This document shows, in pieces, positions 2,446 to 47,603 of a stretch of 64,000 nt of DNA. A model generated the notes under the pieces. It searched no databases and was not told the origin of the DNA. It saw nothing but the letters and a program-made list of their open reading frames with translations. Positions within the stretch are counted from its first letter, which is position 1. Each line of letters opens with the position of its first letter. The position numbers were made by a program, and so were the translations under genes. The stretch covers positions 4,154,001-4,218,000 of the forward strand of contig NZ_CP109130.1 of NCBI RefSeq assembly GCF_035917975.1, written 5' to 3'. Source of the stretch: Streptosporangium sp. NBC_01756 (GTDB taxonomy: Bacteria > Actinomycetota > Actinomycetes > Streptosporangiales > Streptosporangiaceae).

Positions 2446-2489
2446 ATATCCACAGCCTGTGGAGAATCATCCTGTGGATATGTGGAAAA
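2446..2489. promoter_or_regulatory. Cluster of four DnaA-box-like 9-mers
   Basis: Four near-matches (one mismatch each) to the box TTATCCACA or its complement: ATATCCACA 2446-2454, TGTGGAGAA 2458-2466, TGTGGATAT 2473-2481, TGTGGAAAA 2481-2489. The first two form an inverted pair with a 3-bp GCC spacer. The last two lie inside the final codons of the adjacent methyltransferase gene. The rest of the 2158-2466 intergenic stretch shows nothing recognisable. Confidence 0.5.
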
Positions 2490-3909
2490 ACCCTTCGGCG
2501 ATCAGCGACCGGAGCCCCTCGGGAGCCTTGATCCGCAGGTCATCGGGGTCCTCCCCGGTAAGCTCCGCGATCGCGGCGAGCAGCGGCTCCAGTGGATAGT
2601 CGCCGTCGCAGACTCCGGCGAGAGCCGCCTCCACGGTCCCCACCTGCGCGCTGCGGCGCAGCCCCCCGGTCTGCCTGAGCGTGATCCTCGACGGGTCCTC
2701 GGCGCCGGGCGGCCCGACACGCTCCTCCAGCACGCCGCCCGCGAGCACCGGCCGGGAACCCAGCAGCTCCCCGTCGGTCAGCCGGTGCGCCTCGGCGATG
2801 GAGCCGAGCACCTCGTCCACATATCCGCCGACCGGGAGCTCCACCTGTTGCCGGAGCTCCTCCACCCGGACGACGGGGTCGAGACTGCCGGAGTCGTGCA
2901 CGGTGATCCAGCCGAAGCCGACCCCCGTGATGTCCATGGACGCGAACCAGCCGAGCCACTCGTCGTAGAGCTCGCGGTATCGGGGGGTGCCCTGTTCCGC
3001 GGCGTCCCTCAGCCACAGCTCCACGTACTCGGCCGGGTCCTGGACGTCCCGCTGGACCACCCAGCCGTCGCAGCCGGTGCCGGTCAGCCACCCGCCCACC
3101 CGGTCCCGCCAGTCCTCACCACCGACGTGCAGCCAGTTGGCCAGGAGCTGGCAGGTGCCACCGGGGGCGAGAAAGCGGGGGGCCAGCCGTACGAGGTCAC
3201 GGCAGAAGCCGTCGGCCTCGAATCCCGACTCCCGGTAGGTGAACCGGCCGCCGGGAGAGATCACGAACGGCGGGTTGGCGACGATCAGGTCGAAGCGCTC
3301 ACCGTCGACGGGATCGAACAGGGAGCCCTCGCGGGCGTCCACCCCCCGGACCCCGGACAGCGCCCAGCTCAGCCGGGCCAGCTCCAGCGCGCGGGGGTTG
3401 ACGTCCGTGGCGACGATCTCGCGGGCCCGGTCGGCCAGGTGCAGCACCTGGACCCCGCAGCCGGTGCCGATGTCGAGGGCGCGCTCCACGGGGCGGCGGG
3501 AGACCAACTGGGCCAGGTTCGCCGAGGCCCCTCCCGCACCGACGACGTGGTCCTCCCGGAGCGCGGGGTCACCCGGCCTGACTTTGCGGTCGGAGACGAC
3601 GTAGCCGCCGGTCTCCCAGGGCTGCAGGTGGACCGCGGAGGTGACCCGGCCCCCCTCCACGGTCACCAGCCCCGCGGCGGCCAGGTCGGCCACCGGGAGG
3701 GCGGCGGGCGCGTCCACCGGGACGCCGAGCCACCACAGCCGGATGAGCGTGCCCAGGAGGTCTCCGTCGCGGGTGGCGCGCAGGGCGGGCACCGTCTCCT
3801 CGCGCGAGAGTGCGGTGGCGGCGACCTCGCCGAGTCGCTCGCGGACACCGTCGATGGTGTAGCCGGCGTCGAGCAGCAGCTCTCTGAGCCGGTCAGGCAG
3901 ATCGTTCAC
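2467..3909 (-). CDS. Class I SAM-dependent methyltransferase (HemK/PrmC-like fold)
   Basis: About 480 residues. The N-terminal 130 residues form an actinobacterial helper domain (DUF7059 type as I recall it). The methyltransferase core has motif I ALDIGTGCGVQVLHLA, an acidic motif II (ATDVNPRAL) and NPPF (VANPPFVISPG), the signature of N-methyltransferases acting on glutamine or nucleic-acid amino groups. The C-terminal third is specific to this group. GTG at 3909 was preferred because it has GAGGAT upstream and starts just before the conserved NDLPDRLR segment; ATG at 3951 would add 14 residues. Substrate is unknown: RNA, ribosomal protein or release factor are all possible. The last codons (FFHISTG) are written over DnaA-box-like DNA. 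The gene is convergent with the SARP gene. Confidence 0.8.
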   Translation of the reverse strand: MNDLPDRLRELLLDAGYTIDGVRERLGEVAATALSREETVPALRATRDGDLLGTLIRLWWLGVPVDAPAALPVADLAAAGLVTVEGGRVTSAVHLQPWETGGYVVSDRKVRPGDPALREDHVVGAGGASANLAQLVSRRPVERALDIGTGCGVQVLHLADRAREIVATDVNPRALELARLSWALSGVRGVDAREGSLFDPVDGERFDLIVANPPFVISPGGRFTYRESGFEADGFCRDLVRLAPRFLAPGGTCQLLANWLHVGGEDWRDRVGGWLTGTGCDGWVVQRDVQDPAEYVELWLRDAAEQGTPRYRELYDEWLGWFASMDITGVGFGWITVHDSGSLDPVVRVEELRQQVELPVGGYVDEVLGSIAEAHRLTDGELLGSRPVLAGGVLEERVGPPGAEDPSRITLRQTGGLRRSAQVGTVEAALAGVCDGDYPLEPLLAAIAELTGEDPDDLRIKAPEGLRSLIAEGFFHISTG

Positions 3910-4057
3910 CCGGCCATCCTCGCACCAGGAGCACCGCACCCCACTTGTCACCTAGAGTGATATGTCAGACGCAGAGCGGAGCAAGCGTTCTGCAAGCGGA
4001 TCTCAAGTGCGAGGCGGTAATCATGTGGAGCCACCTATCCGCTCCGAAGGATCCGCG

Positions 4058-44598: not shown

Positions 44599-45954
44599 CT
44601 AATGGGGGGCCATGTCGACGAAGCGGCTGTAATGGCCCTGGAAGGCCACGGTGACCGTGGCGGTGGGGCCGTTACGGTGCTTGGCCACGATCAGGTCGGC
44701 CTCGCCCGCTCGGGGTGATTCGCGCTCGTACGCATCTTCCCGGTGGAGAAGAATGACCATGTCGGCATCCTGCTCGATGCTGCCCGATTCGCGGAGGTCG
44801 CTGACCATGGGGCGCTTGTCGGTCCGCTGCTCGGGGCCACGGTTGAGCTGGGAGATCGCGATGACCGGGACCTCCAGCTCCTTGGCGAGGAGTTTGATGG
44901 CCCGGGAGATCTCGGAGACCTCGTTCTGACGGCTCTCGGTCTTCTTCGGCGAGGACATCAGCTGCAGGTAGTCGATGATGACGAAGCGCAGGTCGTTGCG
45001 CTGTTTGAGACGACGGCACTTGGCCCGGATCTCCATCATCGACATGTTGGGCGAGTCGTCGATGAACAGCGGCGCCTCGGCCACCTCGCCCATCCGCCGG
45101 GCCAGCTTGGCCCAGTCCTCGTCGGTCATCGTGCCCGACCGCATGTTGTGCAGTGCCACCCTGGCCTCGGCGGACAGCAGACGCATCGTGATCTCATTAC
45201 GGGACATTTCAAGCGAGAACACGACAGTCGTCATACCGTGCTTGATAGCGGCAGATCTGGCGAAATCCAGTCCCAAAGTGGATTTTCCGATGGCCGGGCG
45301 GGCGGCCACGACGATCATCTGGCCGGGGTGGAGGCCGTTGGTGAGGGCGTCGAGGTCCTGGAAGCCGGTGGGGACGCCGACCATCTGGCCGCCGCGGCCG
45401 CCGATGGCCTCCAGCTCGTCGAGGGCACCCGGCATGATGTCGGCCAGCGGGATGTAGTCCTCGGAGGTGCGGCGCTCGGTGACCTTGTAGATCTCGGCCT
45501 GCGCGCGGTCGACGAGCTCGTCGACCTCCTCGTCCTGCCCGCCGTAGCCGAAGGAGACGATGCGGGTGCCGGCCTCGATCAGCCGCCGGAGGATGGCCTG
45601 CTCGCGGACGATCCTGGCGTAGTAGCCGGCGTTCGCGGCGGTGGGCACGACGGCGGTCAGCGTGTGGAGGTAGGCGCCGCCGCCGACCCGGGCGACCTCG
45701 CCGCGCTTCTGCAGCTCGTCGAAGATGGTGACGGCGTCGGCGGGGTCGCCGCGTCCGTAGAGGTCGGTGATGATGTCGTAGATGATCTGGTGGGCCGGGC
45801 GGTAGAAGTCGTCGGACCGCACGATCTCGACGACATCGGCGATGGCGTCCTTGGACAGCAGCATGCCGCCGAGGACGGACTGCTCGGCCTCGATGTTGTT
45901 CGGTGGGGTGCGCTCGAATCCCGGCTCAAACACCGGTGGCTCCGCGATGCTCAC
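44599..45954 (-). CDS. dnaB: Replicative DNA helicase
   Basis: 451 residues, normal for an intein-free DnaB. The N-terminal primase-interacting domain (NNIEAEQSVLGGMLLS) and RecA-like domain with Walker A ARPAIGKSTLGLD, Walker B VIIDYLQLM and the GSIEQDADMVILLHR element are all present. It unwinds DNA at the fork as a hexamer. The Walker A site, a common intein insertion point, is uninterrupted. A dense group of DnaA-like boxes lies between its start and the divergent MATE gene. Confidence 0.97.
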   Translation of the reverse strand: MSIAEPPVFEPGFERTPPNNIEAEQSVLGGMLLSKDAIADVVEIVRSDDFYRPAHQIIYDIITDLYGRGDPADAVTIFDELQKRGEVARVGGGAYLHTLTAVVPTAANAGYYARIVREQAILRRLIEAGTRIVSFGYGGQDEEVDELVDRAQAEIYKVTERRTSEDYIPLADIMPGALDELEAIGGRGGQMVGVPTGFQDLDALTNGLHPGQMIVVAARPAIGKSTLGLDFARSAAIKHGMTTVVFSLEMSRNEITMRLLSAEARVALHNMRSGTMTDEDWAKLARRMGEVAEAPLFIDDSPNMSMMEIRAKCRRLKQRNDLRFVIIDYLQLMSSPKKTESRQNEVSEISRAIKLLAKELEVPVIAISQLNRGPEQRTDKRPMVSDLRESGSIEQDADMVILLHREDAYERESPRAGEADLIVAKHRNGPTATVTVAFQGHYSRFVDMAPH

Positions 45955-46051
45955 CGCCCACCCCCTCTTTCGAACACAGTTGCGCTATCCCCATTTGTAG
46001 CCGACCAGTCTGACAGTTTCGCCGCTCTCCGGACCATGTGGCAACGCGGCC

Positions 46052-46191
46052 TGTAGACAAGGGTGTGGATAAGGTAGGGGGTTCTTCCCCAGATGTGGGG
46101 ACACCCTGTGGACATACCTGTGGACAACTCTTTTCCACAGACCGGAAAGACCGTCTGACCAGCGAAATCTTTATCCACTGCCTGTGGAGAA
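46052..46191. promoter_or_regulatory. Dense cluster of DnaA-box-like sites upstream of dnaB
   Basis: Seven sites in 140 bp: TGTAGACAA 46052, TGTGGATAA 46064-46072 (perfect), TGTGGACAT 46107, TGTGGACAA 46119, TTTTCCACA 46131, TTATCCACT 46171 and TGTGGAGAA 46183-46191. The last two form an inverted pair with a GCC spacer, as at 2446 and 52722. The surrounding region 45955-46265 has no gene. Dense box clusters are typical of replication origins or DnaA-regulated promoters. Confidence 0.65.
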
Positions 46192-46265
46192 AAGAAAGTT
46201 GGGGCGACACGCCGAGACTCTCCTCACATGGCACGCCCTGTCCAGGTGATCCTTTTTGGAGTCGC

Positions 46266-46310
46266 GCTGGGGGTAAGAGGCACAATAGATCCGTGCCTCT
46301 TACCCCCAGC
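46266..46310. promoter_or_regulatory. 18-bp-arm perfect palindrome over the MATE start codon
   Basis: Left arm GCTGGGGGTAAGAGGCAC (46266-46283) and right arm 46293-46310, separated by 9 bp (AATAGATCC). The right arm begins with the GTG start codon and covers the first six codons. The spacer with its left flank, CACAATAGAT, resembles a -10 element. Confidence 0.75.
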
Positions 46311-47603
46311 ACCGCTCGCGACCACGACAGGCAGATCCTCCGGCTGGCCGTACCGGCCTTCGGAGCGCTCGTCGCCGAGCCGCTGTTCCTGTTGACCGAC
46401 ACCGTCATCGTCAGCCACCTGCCGGCGCCGGCGCTCGGCGCGCTGGGAGTGGCGAGCACCGTGCTGAGCGTTCTGGTGGGGCTGTGCGTGTTCCTGGCCT
46501 ACGGGACGACGGCGGCGGTGGCTCGGCAGATCGGTGCGGGAAACACCCGGCGGGCGATCCAGCAGGGGGTGGACGGCCTCTGGCTGGCGGTCGGGGTCGG
46601 GCTGGCGGCCATCGCGGTGGTGTGGCCGCTCGCGCCCTTCCTCGTCCAGGTGATCGGTGCCGAGGGTGAGCTCGCCCGGCAGGCGGTGACCTACCTGAGG
46701 ATCAGCCTGCTGGGCGTTCCGGCCATGCTGCTCGTCCTGGCCGGAACCGGTGTGCTGCGCGGCATGCAGGACACCGCGACCCCACTGCTGGTCTCCGTCG
46801 GGTCGTTCGCGCTCAACGCACTGCTCAACCTCGCGTTCGTGCTGGGCCTGGGCTGGGGCATCGCAGGCTCGGCCTGGGGCACGGTGCTGGCCCAGTCGCT
46901 CGCCGCCGCGGTCTATCTCGTCCTGGTGTTCGGGCGGCACCGGGCACGGCTCCGGCCCGATCTGCCGGGCATCCGGGCGGCGGGCTCGGCCGGGATCGCC
47001 CTGATCATCCGTACGGCGTGCATGCAACTGGTGCTGACCGTCGCCGCGACCGTGGCCACCCGCATGGGGGACCACCAGATCGAGGCTCACACGGTCGCCC
47101 TGCGGATCTGGACCCTGCTCGCCTTCGCGCTGGACGCCATCGCCATCGCCGGACAGGCCATCACCGGTCGCACCCTGGGCTCCGGTGACGTGGCGGGGAC
47201 CCGGGCGGCGACCCTGCGGATGGTCATATGGGGGATCGGCTCGGGGGCGGTGTTCGGGCTCGTGGTGATCGTGGCCAGGCCGTTCGTCCCCGCGCTGTTC
47301 GACGTCGGCCCGGCGGTGGCCGGGCCGTTGCTCGACCTGCTCTGGGTGATAGCGCTCCTGCAGCCGATGGCGGGGGTGGTGTTCGTGCTGGACGGAGTGC
47401 TGATCGGCGCCGGTGACCAGCGCTACCTCGCCTGGGCGGCGCTGTGGACGACCCTCGCCTACCTGCCCGCGGTGCTCCTGGTGATCGTCGCCGGGAGCGG
47501 CCTGGTGGCGCTCTGGCTGGCGCTCGGGGTGTGGATGGCGGCCCGGTTGGTCACGTTGGGACTGCGCGCGTACGGCGGTACGTGGCTGGTGATCGGTGCG
47601 TGA
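46293..47603 (+). CDS. MATE-family efflux transporter (DinF-like)
   Basis: 436 residues, 12 hydrophobic helices, matching the DinF-like MATE branch (RQILRLAVPAFGALVAEPLFLLTDTVIVSHL start; second half with IEAHTVALRIWTLLAFALDAIAIAGQAITG). It would export cationic drugs or metabolites using an ion gradient. GTG 46293 is the family-consistent start; it has no ribosome site and directly follows a -10-like CACAATAGAT, so leaderless initiation is likely. The start lies within a perfect palindrome. Confidence 0.88.
   Translation: MPLTPSTARDHDRQILRLAVPAFGALVAEPLFLLTDTVIVSHLPAPALGALGVASTVLSVLVGLCVFLAYGTTAAVARQIGAGNTRRAIQQGVDGLWLAVGVGLAAIAVVWPLAPFLVQVIGAEGELARQAVTYLRISLLGVPAMLLVLAGTGVLRGMQDTATPLLVSVGSFALNALLNLAFVLGLGWGIAGSAWGTVLAQSLAAAVYLVLVFGRHRARLRPDLPGIRAAGSAGIALIIRTACMQLVLTVAATVATRMGDHQIEAHTVALRIWTLLAFALDAIAIAGQAITGRTLGSGDVAGTRAATLRMVIWGIGSGAVFGLVVIVARPFVPALFDVGPAVAGPLLDLLWVIALLQPMAGVVFVLDGVLIGAGDQRYLAWAALWTTLAYLPAVLLVIVAGSGLVALWLALGVWMAARLVTLGLRAYGGTWLVIGA

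Follow-up and report, generated by a model that had tools for sequence, protein, structure and literature searches.

The dense cluster of DnaA-box-like sites that lies between dnaB and a divergent transporter gene in Streptosporangium sp. NBC_01756 raises the question of whether such an array marks a place where replication starts, holds DnaA away from such a place, or controls one of the genes beside it. An initial annotation of the window (the whole stretch of 64,000 nucleotides analysed herein, corresponding to genome positions 4154001-4218000 of one 9.0-Mb contig) had offered regulation of dnaB by DnaA, titration of DnaA and a secondary origin as readings. The cluster is located within a 338-bp intergenic gap (45954 to 46293) that contains no gene, in agreement with that annotation. 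On one side, dnaB for the replicative helicase starts at 45954 on the minus strand (44599-45954; Pfam DnaB_C, 2.5e-108, and DnaB N-terminal domain, 1.9e-36), and on the other a MATE transporter gene starts at 46293 on the plus strand (46293-47603; Pfam MatE, 2e-44). The nearest named DnaB matches were from Nonomuraea (93%), Planotetraspora (91%) and Sphaerisporangium (90%). The dnaB gene of the window is uninterrupted and carries no intein; dnaB matches in several other genomes (G001, G002, G006, G007, G011, G013, G014, G029 and others) are broken at about residue 230, at about residue 398 or at both positions, a pattern that would be expected of inteins. At the start of the MATE gene there is an inverted repeat (46266-46310) whose 18-bp arms match perfectly around a 9-base loop and whose right arm includes the GTG start codon. 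At least 11 bp of this repeat are retained in 9 of 16 same-genus genomes, and one may ask whether it acts as an operator or as an RNA hairpin. No known structured RNA reached its gathering score within 45500-46900, and a scan of 45850-46400 for sigma-70 and terminator consensus sequences gave no match.

Using the pattern TTRTCCACA with at most one mismatch, exactly seven sites were found at 46052-46191, the same number as had been annotated. Reading away from dnaB, these are a weak box TTGTCTACA (46052-46060, minus strand, -106 from the dnaB start) positioned 12 bp from the box TTATCCACA (46064-46072, minus strand, -118), which together form pair 3; a weak box ATGTCCACA (46107-46115, minus strand, -161) and the box TTGTCCACA (46119-46127, minus strand, -173), which form pair 2; the box TTTTCCACA (46131-46139, plus strand, -185); and the inverted pair 1, with the weak box TTATCCACT (46171-46179, plus strand, -225) as one arm and the box TTCTCCACA (46183-46191, minus strand, -237) as the other. 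Two of the seven, at 46064 and 46119, fit TTRTCCACA perfectly. The earlier statement that one box is perfect holds if TTATNCACA is taken as the standard (46064) but not for TTRTCCACA, for which TTGTCCACA at 46119 is perfect too. In S. coelicolor and M. tuberculosis, TTGTCCACA is described as the high-affinity box (PMC4285127). Across the whole 9.0-Mb genome, sites with at most one mismatch are barely over-represented (1116, as compared to 1001 for the reversed pattern), and therefore the evidence consists of clustering and conservation rather than of any lone weak box; strict boxes number 47, as compared to 30 for the reversed pattern. From the genome-wide count of 1116, about 0.017 sites are expected by chance per 140 bp. 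With seven, the dnaB cluster has the highest box density per 140 bp across the 411.5 kb around oriC, and five first-order Markov surrogates of this 411.5-kb region contained no more than two boxes in any 140 bp.

To what extent are these boxes maintained among close relatives? The region upstream of dnaB was aligned for 17 genomes, and per-box counts were taken from the 16 of the same genus. Box -118 was identical (TTATCCACA) and box -173 was a perfect TTRTCCACA in 16 of 16, which is the opposite of the outcome that the initial annotation had named as refuting, namely boxes not conserved in sister species. Their 12-bp partners were kept in position, with two mismatches in 14 of 16 genomes for box -106 and in 12 of 16 for box -161 (CTGTCCCCA). 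Box -225 showed two mismatches in 14 of 16, and box -237 showed one mismatch in nine and two in seven of the 16; as an inverted pair these two read CTCCACAGGC.GTGGAT in all 17 aligned genomes, with arms that are weak as boxes. Box -185 was the least conserved: 11 of the 16 genomes retain it with no more than one mismatch. Within the same-genus alignment, mean column identity was 0.92-1.00 for the boxes, save 0.79 for -185, and was 0.71 and 0.87 in the stretches between boxes, 0.84 at -97 to -66, 0.86 at -39 to -1 and 0.76 at -300 to -250. Box columns on average therefore exceed the inter-box stretches in conservation, with -185 as the exception; as a counterweight, four of the seven boxes (-106, -161, -225 and -237) are weak in most or many of the same-genus genomes.

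To extend the comparison beyond the genus, 138 actinomycete loci were assembled from 58 genomes and 80 further loci, many of the loci being from Streptomyces and thus not independent of one another. The 58 were drawn from 60 genomes, leaving out G028 (no dnaB match) and G045 (a C-terminal fragment only), and alignments served to place the dnaB starts of the relatives by extrapolation. Two or more boxes were present in the 600 bp preceding dnaB at 125 of 138 loci, as compared to 2 of 137 for a control stretch at -1300 to -700. By kinship, this was true of 16/16 genomes of the same genus, 20/20 from other genera of the family and 15/22 from the rest of the order and class; the 13 loci with fewer than two boxes included none of the 36 own-family genomes and seven of the 22 from the order and class. 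Boxes were found upstream of dnaB in loci from Nonomuraea, Streptomyces, Arthrobacter and Microbacterium, for example. Strict boxes upstream of dnaB numbered 82 in the 58 loci and 122 in the 80, as compared to one and none in the control stretch, none in either set inside dnaB, and two and three for the reversed strict pattern. The neighbouring gene is less constant than the boxes. In 86 of the 138 loci dnaB has a divergent MATE gene next to it, and 83 of these carry two or more boxes; the same holds for 42 of the 52 loci that lack an adjacent MATE gene, including 18 of 25 with an adjacent rplI and 24 of 27 with neither MATE nor rplI within about 1 kb. Because the boxes persist across these changes of neighbour, the cluster goes with dnaB.

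Between the cluster and dnaB lies a promoter-like element, TGTCAG-N10-TACAA (45995-46015, minus strand), which is the only match in the window to TGTCRS-N10-TANAA, on the dnaB strand, where 0.04 would be expected. The window boxes are located about 37 to 176 bp upstream of it. When the 300 bp preceding dnaB were searched for a shorter form of the element, TGTC[AG][GC]-N10-TA, 79 of the 138 loci carried it on the coding strand and 59 did not; the counts were none in antisense, three at -600 to -300 and four inside dnaB. This pattern was chosen after viewing an alignment of the genus, and some of the loci on which it was counted are those in which it had first been noticed. The element was present in 16/16 genomes of the same genus, 10/20 from other genera of the family and 7/22 from the order and class. 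Seventy-four loci have the element together with two or more boxes, and in all 74 the boxes are positioned exclusively 5′ of the element, the nearest at a distance of 15 to 161 bp.

Taken together, these observations make it quite likely that the cluster is a DnaA-binding upstream control region of dnaB, and an activating role is the most likely one. Boxes near the putative promoter and conserved together with the gene, as one might expect for a member of a DnaA regulon, were both found at dnaB. DnaA would bind the two strong boxes (46064 and 46119), each of which has a weaker partner at a distance of 12 bp, and would also bind the inverted weak pair at 46171 and 46183; from its position upstream of the element at 45995-46015, which we infer to be the dnaB promoter of this organism, the bound protein would then activate dnaB. 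Such an arrangement probably ties the supply of helicase to the initiator. Of the readings first annotated, regulation of dnaB by DnaA is therefore the one that is well supported, given the conservation of the boxes with dnaB, their place upstream of the element and the published binding in mycobacteria. In M. tuberculosis, five DnaA sites have been reported, at oriC, rpmH-dnaA, Rv0057 upstream of dnaB, Rv0010c-Rv0011c and Rv3843c-RVnc0040, and homologues of the same five regions are reported for M. smegmatis (PMC7738170). DnaA was found upstream of dnaB by IDAP-seq in M. tuberculosis and by ChIP-seq at the homologous region in M. smegmatis, and the I282T variant of M. tuberculosis DnaA, which binds more weakly upstream of dnaB, uniquely under-expresses dnaB (PMC7738170). 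The Streptosporangium cluster resembles this mycobacterial Rv0057 region in being a DnaA site upstream of dnaB within the same bacterial class; it differs in that binding was demonstrated there both in vitro and in vivo whereas the sites described herein are predicted from sequence, and in that the boxes here are arranged as 12-bp pairs within a 338-bp divergent dnaB/MATE region, a comparison with the mycobacterial peak made by description rather than by sequence (PMC7738170). In Caulobacter, which is from a distant phylum, dnaB likewise belongs to the DnaA regulon: boxes are predicted upstream of it, and its expression there depends on DnaA (Hottes 2005, cited in PMC8203912). The kind of site is already known; the cluster described herein is a member in another family, presented together with its architecture and its breadth. 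A literature search, which left subscription journals mostly uncovered and is thus weak evidence, gave no recognised report of class-wide DnaA boxes at dnaB or crgA.

The promoter-like element itself is suggestive of a second input. In M. tuberculosis the PafBC motif is given as TGTCGG, TGTCAG or TGTCAC, ten bases, TA, three bases and T, and dnaB of that organism is induced by mitomycin C in a partly PafBC-dependent manner (PMC8151990). The element at 45995-46015 shares with PafBC/RecA-NDp promoters (PMC8151990, PMC8223512) one of the hexamers TGTCGG, TGTCAG and TGTCAC, the ten-base spacing and the TA. It differs, as do nearly all of the dnaB elements in our survey, in the final T of TANNNT: the window reads TACAAA, and TGTCRG-N10-TANNNT with the final T occurred at only five of the 138 dnaB loci. 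The genome encodes two neighbouring WYL proteins (447482-448718) that may well be a pafBC pair, with Pup nearby at 465951. Based on the resemblance of the element to the PafBC motif, dnaB may respond to DNA damage as well as to the level of the initiator. A further PafBC-like motif, this one with the final T, was observed at about 50802 of the window (genome 4204802, minus strand), just upstream of ssb, between ssb and an ORF resembling rpsF.

The rival that survives best, though we judge it unlikely, is that the cluster is a site for DnaA titration or activity, similar to datA/DARS or to the Streptomyces clusters, whose boxes take up DnaA, or reset it, close to oriC and limit initiation, and for which dnaB is merely an address. 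The cluster is indeed a group of strong boxes outside oriC, and strong boxes are rare (the 47 strict matches in 9.0 Mb); moreover, of the clusters present in the 411.5 kb, several are located near oriC, at dnaB, upstream of dnaA, at oriC and at the 3′ end of crgA, the last of which sits 3′ of its gene and not at a promoter. In S. coelicolor, clusters H24, H69 and D78 were reportedly studied (in J Bacteriol, in 2006) as sites that limit initiation, and deletion of one DnaA-box cluster is said to have increased initiation. Like the present cluster, these are actinomycete groups of strong boxes away from oriC, and one of the three may be the dnaB region of S. coelicolor. However, titration alone would require neither that the cluster track dnaB through changes of neighbour nor that it stay 5′ of the element, and in M. 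tuberculosis weaker binding by I282T goes together with lower dnaB expression (PMC7738170). Titration may nonetheless occur alongside regulation of dnaB, and because the two are compatible our confidences in the best explanation and in its rivals overlap.

That DnaA mainly represses dnaB, as it would at dnaA itself, is likewise unlikely in our estimation. Autoregulation of dnaA by DnaA has been described in Streptomyces lividans and in slow-growing mycobacteria (PMC8203912), which lends this possibility some precedent, but the boxes lie 5′ of the element without overlapping it in 74 of 74 loci, and under-expression of dnaB by the weaker-binding mycobacterial variant (PMC7738170) is the reverse of what repression would predict. 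A service to the divergent MATE gene is highly improbable: the cluster precedes the MATE start too, by about 100-240 bp, and the gene is adjacent and divergent in well over half of the loci (86/138), but at least two boxes remain in 42 of the 52 in which it is not adjacent.

The dnaA gene was located at genome 4239192-4240889, 39-41 kb from the cluster, so that its absence from the window had been correctly noted; it lies just beyond, at a window coordinate of about 85,190. An ordinary oriC gap is present between dnaA and dnaN (Pfam), about 41 kb from the cluster, the 1.3 kb from the dnaA end contains 19 boxes if two mismatches are allowed and 8 if one is allowed, and the ORF after dnaN resembles recF by eye. 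Over the 411.5 kb scanned, cumulative GC skew has its minimum at 4242549, inside dnaN and about 42 kb from the cluster, and no turning point at the dnaB cluster. Over 50 bp, AT content peaks at 62% in oriC and at 54% in the dnaB cluster, set against regional 99th and 99.9th percentiles of 52% and 62%; taken by themselves, these values do not discriminate between an origin and another kind of site. A secondary chromosomal origin, as had also been offered, is hardly credible in light of this gene content and GC skew: the region upstream of dnaB does have an origin-like cluster of DnaA boxes, denser at up to one mismatch than those of oriC (7 in 140 bp versus 8 in 1.3 kb), and an AT maximum above the regional 99th percentile, but a normal dnaA-oriC-dnaN locus is located about 40 kb away, with the skew minimum of the 411.5 kb inside its dnaN and the higher AT peak in its oriC.

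The preferred reading, that of an upstream control region for dnaB, may be part of a larger pattern. Outside of the window, at genome 4318883-4318955, a DnaA-box cluster was found at the 3′ end of crgA (CrgA match, 4318938-4319177), between crgA and a convergent rhomboid gene and adjoining a cyclophilin gene. Of the 60 genomes, 57 had crgA and all 57 were counted. In the 350 bp at the crgA 3′ end they contain 128 boxes when one mismatch is allowed, of which 49 are strict, as compared to nine and no strict boxes in the 5′ flank and to six and none for the reversed pattern at the 3′ end. At least two boxes were found in 41 of 57 genomes, or in 39 of 57 when 14 of the 128 boxes, which share one position within the crgA coding end, are excluded; of the 16 genomes with fewer than two, 10 belong to the family (none to the genus) and six lie outside of it. 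In M. tuberculosis we take Rv0011c to be crgA, and a cyclophilin gene presumably adjoins it there as well. By position, the crgA 3′ cluster thus seems to match the cryptic mycobacterial DnaA site at Rv0010c-Rv0011c, a correspondence more surprising than the dnaB site. We tentatively propose, as a possibility that falls somewhat short of an even chance, that actinomycetes share ancient DnaA stations at constant genes away from oriC, upstream of dnaB and at the crgA 3′ end (the counterpart of Rv0010c-Rv0011c), in a class-wide DnaA-control circuit that connects initiator level, helicase supply and, via the surroundings of crgA, cell division.

Other box clusters were observed as well. A second cluster in the window (2446-2489) overlies the 3′ terminus of a gene for a DUF7059 methyltransferase (2467-3951, minus strand). 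Each of the 16 same-genus genomes has between two and four boxes there, and G029 has boxes as well; in all 15 of the other genomes read, the 3′ terminus of this gene has none. For this comparison 17 of 40 matching genomes were read, namely G000 and 16 outside the genus with loci, eight outside-genus genomes being left out. Since this cluster is not kept class-wide, class-wide conservation is not an automatic outcome of the method. Nowhere in the genome do more strict boxes stand together than at 4674032-4674107, where four perfect boxes occupy 76 bp. This site is 435 kb from dnaA, and a gene for a type II/IV secretion ATPase lies about 1.5 kb away; the flanking DNA is present in 16 of 16 same-genus genomes, of which 12 have at least two boxes by eye.

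With these comparisons, what looked like an origin becomes a testable control region that would couple the supply of helicase to the initiator, perhaps with DNA damage as a second input to dnaB. The presence of boxes at dnaB in Nonomuraea, Streptomyces, Arthrobacter and Microbacterium makes the mycobacterial binding maps testable in laboratory organisms. Finally, variants of the Rv0010c-Rv0011c DnaA site of M. tuberculosis have been reported to alter cell length and the response to isoniazid (PMC7738170), and if the crgA correspondence is true it would provide a non-pathogen model for this site.
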